From a virus: 22,210 bases of DNA. The notes under the pieces are model-generated. The model made no database searches. It had not been told where the DNA came from and saw only the letters and a list, made by a program, of their open reading frames with translations. Of this stretch, positions 20,712 to 22,210 are shown piece by piece (within the stretch, counting starts at the first letter, position 1; each line of letters begins with the position of its first letter). The stretch covers positions 1 to 22,210 of the IMG/VR virus record IMGVR_UViG_3300032293_000333. One strand, given 5' to 3'. The translations under genes and the position numbers were made by a program.

Positions 20712-21041
20712 ATGAACCTGAACAACCTGATTACCGCCCTGATGATCGTAGAGTCCTCCGGCAATGACCAAGCCATCGGCGACAACGGACGCGCCCTAGG
20801 CCCCCTGCAGATCCACCGCGGCGTGGTCCTGGACGTGAACCGATTCACCGGCAGCAACTATCGGCACCAGGACATGACCAACCGCGTGGCAGCCCGGGCA
20901 GTGTGCCAGGCCTACCTCGAGCACTACGGCCGCGGCAAGACGACTGAACAGCAGGCCCGGATCTGGAATGGCGGTCCCACCGGTGACCGGAAGCCTGTGA
21001 CACTTGTCTACTGGCGCCGCGTGCAGAAGGCGATCAAATGA
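20712..21041 (+). CDS. Lysozyme-like/transglycosylase-type muralytic protein
   Basis: 109 residues starting MNLNNLITALMIVESSGNDQ with E14 in the IVESSG motif, then AIGDNGRALGPLQI and DVNRFTGSNY, and later ARIWNGGPTG. ESxGxxxAxGDxGxAxGPLQI is the signature of small SLT-type lytic transglycosylase/lysozyme folds, with the glutamate as catalytic acid. It would cleave glycan strands of peptidoglycan for entry or lysis. There is no signal peptide. The start was chosen at 20712 because it precedes the domain directly and follows the A/C-rich leader; the open frame to 20640 adds only low-complexity sequence. It stands far from the holin-like genes, and the first repeat unit begins at its stop codon. 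Confidence 0.8.
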   Translation: MNLNNLITALMIVESSGNDQAIGDNGRALGPLQIHRGVVLDVNRFTGSNYRHQDMTNRVAARAVCQAYLEHYGRGKTTEQQARIWNGGPTGDRKPVTLVYWRRVQKAIK

Positions 21042-21128
21042 TTTTCAAGGCTGGGCATGACCTGGCCGGGCAAGGCGTGGCGGGGCCCGGCTTGGCAAGG
21101 CAATACGTTCCCCAGTACGGCAACTGGG
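21041..21128 (+). repeat. Composite repeat unit 1: ATTTTC, 11 pentamers, hairpin
   Basis: ATTTTC begins on the last base of the lysozyme stop codon. Eleven pentamers follow at 21047-21101 (AAGGC, TGGGC, ATGAC, CTGGC and so on), ten with GGC in phase. Spacer AATACGTTC leads to hairpin CCCAGT (21111-21116), loop ACGGCA, ACTGGG (21123-21128), six perfect pairs. ACA and the next ATTTTC follow directly. Confidence 0.85.
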
Positions 21129-21131
21129 ACA

Positions 21132-21239
21132 ATTTTCTCACGGCACGGCTCGGTCCGGTAGGGCGCGGTACGGCTTGGCCCGGCGGGGCAGGGCACGGCA
21201 AGGCTAGGCTAGACGCCTGCCGGTGGGCGGTATCACCGG
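21132..21239 (+). repeat. Composite repeat unit 2: ATTTTC, 14 pentamers, terminal hairpin
   Basis: ATTTTCTCA then fourteen uninterrupted NGGYN pentamers (21141-21210), three with GGT and the rest GGC. Spacer AGACGCCTG leads to stem CCGGTG (21220-21225), loop GGCGGTAT, CACCGG (21234-21239). It is followed by ACACTTTC and then the A/C-rich leader of the gene at 21283. This is the last unit of its group and its stem is identical to that of unit 5. Confidence 0.85.
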
Positions 21240-21282
21240 ACACTTTCGTCGGTAACTAACAAGGCAACCAAAGCAAAACAAC

Positions 21283-21858
21283 ATGAAGCAAATCAAAGTC
21301 AAACTCACCGGGCTGCGGCCCCTCATCATGCACAATGGCGACATGGTGGATCACAAGAACCCATACGTCATGGCGATCAAACGCATCACAGCCAAAGGCA
21401 GCAAAAACATGACTCCAAGCGATCACGACGAGCGCGACCGTCTGGAGTGGGAGGCCGGCCTTTACTGGTCCGAGGCTGAAGGCGGTCTAGTGCTGCCGTG
21501 CGACAACATCGAAAAGTGTCTCAAGGACGGCGCCAAGAAGGCTCGCCTCGGCAAGAAGTTCGACGCCGCTGTCCTTTTGTCTGAGGCCGAGGCTGTGATC
21601 CATCACCGGAGAATCGGCCAGACCAAGGAGCAGATCTACGCCGACCCAGCCTTCACACTGCGGAAGCGAGTAGACCTCGGTATCATTCGAGTCCGGCCGA
21701 TGGTTCCTTCCGGTTGGTGGACGACCTGCACCATCGAGTTCGATGAATCGGTTGTCTCGAAGGAGCAAGTGATCGACGCATCACGCGAGGCTGGCGGACT
21801 GGTCGGCCTGGGCGACTGGCGACCGAAGTTCGGCCGGTTCACTGTCGAGGTGGTTTGA
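21283..21858 (+). CDS. Phage protein, possible RAMP/Cas7-like nucleic-acid-binding fold
   Basis: 191 residues. It starts with a strand ending in KLTGLRPLIMHNG, then a Lys-rich helical part (AIKRITAKGSKNM), RLEWEAGLYWSEAEGG, LPCDNIEKCLKDGAKKARLG, a central VLLSEAEAVIHH, RKRVDLGIIRVRPMVP, and finally VIDASREAGGLVGLGDWRPKFGRFTVEV. This set (LPxxNIxxxLKxGAK and GLGDxRPxFGRF) recurs, as I recall, in many phage and prophage proteins of unknown function. The Gly-rich motif near the end and the IPxxSLKGxLR-like helix recall RAMP/Cas7 RNA-binding proteins, but that is inference. The gene stands between two groups of repeat units. Its stop codon overlaps the ATTTTC of unit 3 and its leader (AAGCAAAACAAC) lacks a Shine-Dalgarno. 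Confidence 0.7.
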   Translation: MKQIKVKLTGLRPLIMHNGDMVDHKNPYVMAIKRITAKGSKNMTPSDHDERDRLEWEAGLYWSEAEGGLVLPCDNIEKCLKDGAKKARLGKKFDAAVLLSEAEAVIHHRRIGQTKEQIYADPAFTLRKRVDLGIIRVRPMVPSGWWTTCTIEFDESVVSKEQVIDASREAGGLVGLGDWRPKFGRFTVEVV

Positions 21859-21953
21859 TTTTCTCAGGGCGCGGCACGGCACGGCCGGGCGGGGCCCGGC
21901 TTGGTATGGCCTGGCGCGGCATGGCAACAACGCGACCCGGCGCGGTATCCGGG
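21858..21953 (+). repeat. Composite repeat unit 3: ATTTTC, 12 pentamers, hairpin
   Basis: ATTTTCTCA begins on the last base of the 191-residue gene's stop codon, as in unit 1. Twelve perfect pentamers (21866-21925), eleven GGC and one GGT. Spacer ACAACGCGA, then stem CCCGG (21936-21940), loop CGCGGTAT, CCGGG (21949-21953), then ACAATTTTTC. Confidence 0.85.
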
Positions 21954-21956
21954 ACA

Positions 21957-22030
21957 ATTTTTCAAGGTCAGGCGCGGCTCGGCAGGGCTTGGCACGGCTA
22001 GGCAACACGTCACTGGGTACGGTAACTCAG
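21957..22030 (+). repeat. Composite repeat unit 4: ATTTTTC, 8 pentamers, hairpin
   Basis: The shortest unit. Eight perfect pentamers (21964-22003), one GGT and seven GGC. Spacer ACACGTCA, then stem CTGGGT (22013-22018), loop ACGGTA, ACTCAG (22025-22030): six pairs including one G/T wobble, different from every other stem in sequence. ACAATTTTTC follows. Confidence 0.85.
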
Positions 22031-22033
22031 ACA

Positions 22034-22121
22034 ATTTTTCGGGGCCCGGTTGGGCTGGGTACGGCGGGGCCAGGCGAGTCTTGGCAAGGCAACAACGCTT
22101 TCCGGTGTGCGGTAACACCGG
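22034..22121 (+). repeat. Composite repeat unit 5: ATTTTTC, 10 pentamers, terminal hairpin
   Basis: Ten pentamers (22041-22090), nine with GGY and one GTC. Spacer ACAACGCTTT is followed by stem CCGGTG (22102-22107), loop TGCGGTAA, CACCGG (22116-22121), then GCAACTTTC and the short leader ACAAC before the ATG at 22136. It is the same terminal type as unit 2. Confidence 0.85.
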
Positions 22122-22135
22122 GCAACTTTCACAAC

Positions 22136-22210
22136 ATGGAAACACAAGACATGATCAACGAAGAAGAGGTCCGGCGCCTTCCGCTCTGGAAGGACTGGAT
22201 CGAACGCAAC
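22136..22210 (+). CDS. Start of a gene cut by the window end
   Basis: Twenty-five codons from ATG 22136 (METQDMINEEEVRRLPLWKD), open to the last base. A second in-frame ATG at 22151 may be the true start. The sequence is acidic then has an aromatic-rich helix (LPLWKDWIERN). The region before it is the terminal repeat unit and an ACAAC leader, the same arrangement as before the 191-residue gene, which supports a real start. The function is unknown. Confidence 0.6.
   Translation, partial: METQDMINEEEVRRLPLWKDWIERN

Follow-up and report, generated by a model that had tools for sequence, protein, structure and literature searches.

What are the five short hairpins, alike in their loops and different in their stems, that lie within a single 1.1-kb region of a viral contig? 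The window analysed here is the whole of that IMG/VR contig (22,210 bases), and as it carries terminase, portal, ClpP-like head-maturation protease and DNA methyltransferase genes it derives from a tailed phage. Relatives of the terminase are all distant (the best at about 30% over the whole protein), the methyltransferase gene (857-1933) sits between the small and large terminase genes, and no tRNA or tmRNA was found in the window. The hairpins, first reported at 21041-22121 in a sequence-only reading, were confirmed on the + strand at 21111-21128, 21220-21239, 21936-21953, 22013-22030 and 22102-22121. Counting every hairpin that has an RCGGYA loop on five or more stem pairs gives five in this region, whereas 1000 dinucleotide shuffles gave 0.034 on average and never more than one, and none was found elsewhere in the 22-kb window; chance does not account for them. 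Their stems are, for units 1-5 in order, CCCAGT/ACTGGG, CCGGTGG/TCACCGG, CCCGG/CCGGG, CTGGGT/ACTCAG and CCGGTGT/ACACCGG. Two things were overlooked in that reading: a GGYNN array before each hairpin, and pairing of the loop with sequence just upstream.

Each hairpin is preceded by an array (GGYNN)n, with n = 11, 14, 12, 8 and 10 in units 1-5, lying in intergenic sequence on the coding strand, and array plus tail are predicted from the sequence to form units ~70-110 nt long. The GGY is nearly fixed and the NN near-random, with all 16 dinucleotides represented and an entropy of 3.80 of 4 bits; no array of at least seven units occurred in 1000 shuffles, compared with five in the window. Such an architecture has been described for VIPR (bioRxiv 2026, PMC13142463), in which phages bind the DNA of rival phages by means of gapped-code RNA guides, using the RAMP protein Vipr (~20 kD) and vrRNAs, with an accessory gene, vap, in the locus. 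According to that preprint, a vrRNA has 9-16 YNNGG (GGY/NN) repeats followed by a 3' tail that is structured and, in the SUSP1 clade, forms a pseudoknot; the NN are matched to double-stranded DNA, skipping one base between pairs, and the SUSP1 locus has been demonstrated experimentally to make guide RNAs (PMC13142463). We conclude that the window very probably carries a phage VIPR locus with five vrRNAs, each ending in one of the five hairpins as its structured 3' tail, in the order vrRNA1-vrRNA2-vipr-vrRNA3-vrRNA4-vrRNA5-vap1. The earlier remark that no described phage or bacterial repeat with such a loop was known to the reader is thereby superseded: the kind is already reported in PMC13142463, and the present locus is a further member, in which array 4, with eight repeats, falls below the published 9-16. 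The features of this candidate locus are as follows.

21049..21103, + strand: vrRNA 1 guide array, 11 x GGYNN, one unit degenerate (GACCT)
21106..21135, + strand: vrRNA 1 tail; CGT 21106-21108 opposite loop ACG 21117-21119; hairpin 21111-21128; ACAATTTT flank
21142..21211, + strand: vrRNA 2 guide array, 14 x GGYNN
21214..21246, + strand: vrRNA 2 tail; CGC 21214-21216 opposite loop GCG 21227-21229; hairpin 21220-21239
21283..21858, + strand: vipr, predicted 191-aa RAMP-fold protein (PHROG 4652) with C-terminal GLGDWRPKFGRF glycine loop
21868..21927, + strand: vrRNA 3 guide array, 12 x GGYNN
21931..21960, + strand: vrRNA 3 tail; CGC 21931-21933 opposite loop GCG 21942-21944; hairpin 21936-21953
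21966..22005, + strand: vrRNA 4 guide array, 8 x GGYNN
22008..22037, + strand: vrRNA 4 tail; CGT 22008-22010 opposite loop ACG 22019-22021; hairpin 22013-22030
22043..22092, + strand: vrRNA 5 guide array, 10 x GGYNN, one unit degenerate (GTCTT)
22096..22129, + strand: vrRNA 5 tail; CGC 22096-22098 opposite loop GCG 22109-22111; hairpin 22102-22121
22136..22210, + strand: first part of a vap1 homologue (METQDMINEEEVRRLPLW...), truncated where the contig stops; complete in relatives, e.g. L245

The protein encoded between the two array blocks is 33% identical to SUSP1 Vipr over its full length (E 5e-28), and its profile gives a full-length match to PDB entry 36pp, 'SUSP1 Vipr protein', at E 2.2e-52. 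An AlphaFold2 model was obtained with a pLDDT of 92.8, its best structural matches in the PDB (E ~1e-5) being Csm3 and subunits from a type VII CRISPR complex, and the C-terminal glycine loop is kept across the Vipr family. In Pfam, PHROG and NCBIfam the sole match was the unnamed PHROG 4652. Judged from this homology and the modelled fold, the 191-aa protein is best regarded as Vipr, a small single-domain RAMP homologue; no close Vipr was found among 388 genomes sampled from the phylum to which a Lentisphaerae MAG belongs. The ORF at 22136 has full-length relatives which connect to SUSP1 vap1 through an iterated profile search, and although the profile-profile score is partly circular, because the final two profiles have members in common, the search seeded with SUSP1 itself reaches the window clade at about E 1e-10. 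Together, vap1 and the SUSP1 homology point to a type II locus; the Vipr tree of the preprint has seven types, and IMG/VR v4 is cited there (PMC13142463). On the other side of the locus, the small ORF 20712-21041 had no family match. It contains a segment, ESSGND..GRALGPLQI, which we take to be reminiscent of lytic transglycosylase/lysozyme motifs.

The stems had been said to change in both arms together, and in the window and its relatives the covariation counts bear this out, the compensatory changes supporting a structured RNA element. Stem counts were confined to the class of 18-base hairpins, because a joint alignment misplaces the 18- and 20-base hairpins, and loop pairing was scored in all tails. 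Within the 18-base class, double changes affect four of the six stem pairs and 96% of cells are paired; when the loop helix is added, 97% of cells are paired with 17 double changes, a level of pairing equalled by none of 500 shuffles and approached by no slid version, the counts being of non-independent events since the tail sequences are related. Taking the window and its relatives together, 28 distinct tails were compared; in every one the loop RCG is paired with the CGY upstream, the variable pair being C-G in 15 and U-A in 13 and never broken, and at one tail position both sides have changed (ACGT...TACGG in L270, ACGC...GGCGG in L271). The loop helix is short, at 3-4 bp. On the strength of these pairings the tail is predicted to be an H-type pseudoknot of the upstream CGY with the hairpin-loop RCG; in the main text of the preprint the pseudoknotted tail is inferred from RNA folding (PMC13142463).

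This alters how the loop is to be understood. The RCGGYA core, held to be constant, is so in the five hairpins of the window, but two tails of the relative L270 have the loop ACGAAA, yet keep ACG opposite CGT. Recognition of a plain hexaloop by a protein is not supported as the simple explanation, as the RCG is one strand of the pseudoknot and its pairing with the upstream CGY accounts at least partly for the conservation. The 3' flank, likewise thought to be common to all five, is shared by units 1, 3 and 4 (ACAATTTTYTC-like), whereas units 2 and 5 carry ACACTTTC and CAACTTTC. A GC stem followed by such a flank was flagged as terminator-like in those three units, and the hairpins might accordingly be taken for intrinsic terminators or RNA-end stabilisers between short transcripts, with the arrays incidental. 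We consider this improbable: three terminator-like units are not clearly above the 1.8 expected in shuffles, the T tract is missing from units 2 and 5, the two that precede genes, and a terminator needs neither a conserved loop, nor an upstream CGY partner, nor a fixed coupling to GGYNN. As part of a vrRNA, the hairpin may nonetheless help to set the 3' end.

The hairpins had also been put forward as a stand-alone family. In favour of a new RNA or DNA stem-loop recognised via its RCGGYA loop and independent of the arrays are the stem covariation, the near-constant loop and the absence from Rfam, which was verified both at the gathering threshold and at E<=1. A covariance model of the tail did find further copies (73 matches at E<=0.1 in 100 sources), but every one was in a VIPR locus of the vipr clade, beside arrays, in relatives with a Vipr identity of about 64% or more; RCGGYA hairpins with no upstream array were without the ACGY and TTT flanks, and in L270 the RCG and its partner persist while the rest of the loop does not. 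Among the loci searched, the tail is confined to the vicinity of vipr in one clade. An array-independent family is, in our estimation, very improbable: the hairpin is the tail at the 3' end of a guide RNA made up mostly of its GGYNN array. Nor is a stem-loop site in DNA likely, given that the locus corresponds to an RNA-guide system and encodes its protein.

Strict pentamer periodicity has other precedents. TRAP reads (GAG/UAG)NN RNA sites with triplets spaced every 5 nt, and a use of the present repeats as mRNA sites for a ring protein of that sort, or as DNA iterons or packaging or recombination sites, would find some support in the 5-nt period and in the intergenic, coding-strand position. 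We judge these uses extremely improbable, as the protein of the locus is Vipr, a RAMP, and the homologous SUSP1 locus makes guide RNAs in experiments. The likeness to TRAP lies in an RNA triplet every 5 nt; the triplet is a different one, the protein is unrelated, and the NN are hypervariable here and thought to carry information.

Turning from these alternatives to the vrRNAs, the association of the pentamer with Vipr extends beyond the window. A scan of viral contigs for the DNA pattern (GGYNN)8 alone found at least 120 loci, many with arrays just 5' of a ribosome-binding site and start codon, and a Vipr homologue was present at 86 of the 120 loci listed. The comparison with the control pattern (GGRNN)8 was made by the rate of Vipr beside listed matches and not by match count: a homologue was present at 8 of 118 listed control loci, and 101 of the 118 control matches were of low complexity. 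When genome contigs were scanned with (GGYNN)10, Vipr was nearby at 4 of 120 listed loci and most matches were without it. Arrays of GGA-NN in place of GGY-NN were also noted near Vipr homologues and on their strand, at L374:13442-13787 (+), L417:5786-6857 (+) and L362:5768-5969 (+) and, in coordinates of the reverse complement, in L415 (9682-9901) and L403 (2768-4048), the last with some 25 array segments and a constant linker, AAAGGAACGGCTGTARTGGA; the main text of the preprint words the consensus as 'GGY/NN or a related consensus', GGA being unnamed there (PMC13142463).

Between relatives the guides turn over, while in all five slots the stem stays specific to the slot. Because stems are position-specific in this way, it is conceivable, if rather doubtful, that the tails are not interchangeable caps but informative, whether by marking the slot, by allowing orthogonal processing or by keeping neighbouring units from recombining. 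Other tail designs occur in the more distant relatives L274, L275, L283, L279 and L287 (Vipr about 47-57% identical): either a hairpin enclosed by an outer helix to which the last repeat contributes, apparently covarying as CAAAC/GTTTG or CACAC/GTGTG, or AACAC-stem-GAAGNTTT. Ten arrays are present in L279, and a further tail class is seen at L006:637-1197, where near-identical two-hairpin linkers (CCTTATTGCRAGGAATARGGCGGYTAANNACCGCC) lie between GGYNN arrays.

Some guides overlap between phages after a shift of at least one whole unit (L244/L246, L261/L288, L245/L247, L248/L284 and L249/L257), which suggests that shared targets may be struck at shifted positions. The analysis gathered 138 distinct guides, and guides were decoded as NNxNNx. 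In ~2.7 Mb of collected sequence, with skips of 0-3 bases, the mean best match was 0.797 for a skip of one base and 0.780-0.791 for the others, a slight and non-decisive difference. Five patterns, two taken from guides that recur in relatives and three from window arrays 1, 2 and 3, gave no exact one-base-skip match in IMG/VR viral contigs; the targets may match imperfectly or belong to elements that are unsampled, and the absence of exact targets neither backs nor refutes the one-base-skip rule here.

The nearest known system is that of the Escherichia phage SUSP1 (type II VIPR, KT454805), with which the locus shares homologous Vipr and vap1, GGY/NN arrays flanking vipr on both sides on the coding strand, and H-type pseudoknot tails whose stems differ between the vrRNAs of one locus. 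Tails of the same topology in KT454805 have GTGG/CCAC around GGTAG/CTACC, GTAG/CTAC around GTCTCA/TGAGAC, and AAGG/CCTT around GGCAG/CTGCC. However, SUSP1 has four vrRNAs to the five found here, and its vipr and vap1 are adjacent, whereas a second vrRNA block separates them in the window. The present tail is GC-rich, with a loop helix of 3-4 bp, a last loop of 3-4 nt and the loop core RCGGYA; SUSP1's own tails have a loop helix of 4-5 bp and an A-rich last loop of 7-9 nt. With the class 1 RAMP effectors of CRISPR-Cas (Csm3, Cas7) there is likeness in the predicted fold of Vipr and in a two-part guide RNA, a variable guide joined to a structured handle. The locus differs from CRISPR-Cas in that no adaptation genes were found, there are neither contiguous spacers nor a direct-repeat array, and the guide is in NN pairs; a search for CRISPR-type repeats in the window gave just the pentamer arrays, the tails and chance pairs, and no cas genes were found among the nine main window proteins searched.

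The arrays, the tails with their covariation and pseudoknot pairing, the homology and predicted fold of Vipr and the homology of vap1 were established here, and transcription, processing, Vipr binding and DNA targeting are carried over from the SUSP1 work. By analogy with SUSP1, the units would be processed to ~100-nt RNAs and the array would be coated by Vipr, a CRISPR-like RAMP; the GGY triplets would stay unpaired with the target while the NN dinucleotides paired with double-stranded DNA and skipped a single target base from one pair to the next, and binding would repress a rival phage or satellite. For the tail, a role in capping or perhaps loading the complex is proposed, much like that of the repeat handle in a crRNA.

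As the new locus belongs to a known kind, VIPR, its novelty is modest. It does firmly place a VIPR locus in an uncultivated phage lineage with dozens of related contigs in IMG/VR, and natural covariation now backs the pseudoknotted vrRNA tail. The 'invariable' tail is refined, in that its sequence varies within the locus and between relatives whilst the pairing is retained, and a clade with turning-over, register-shifted guides offers a good data set for target finding.
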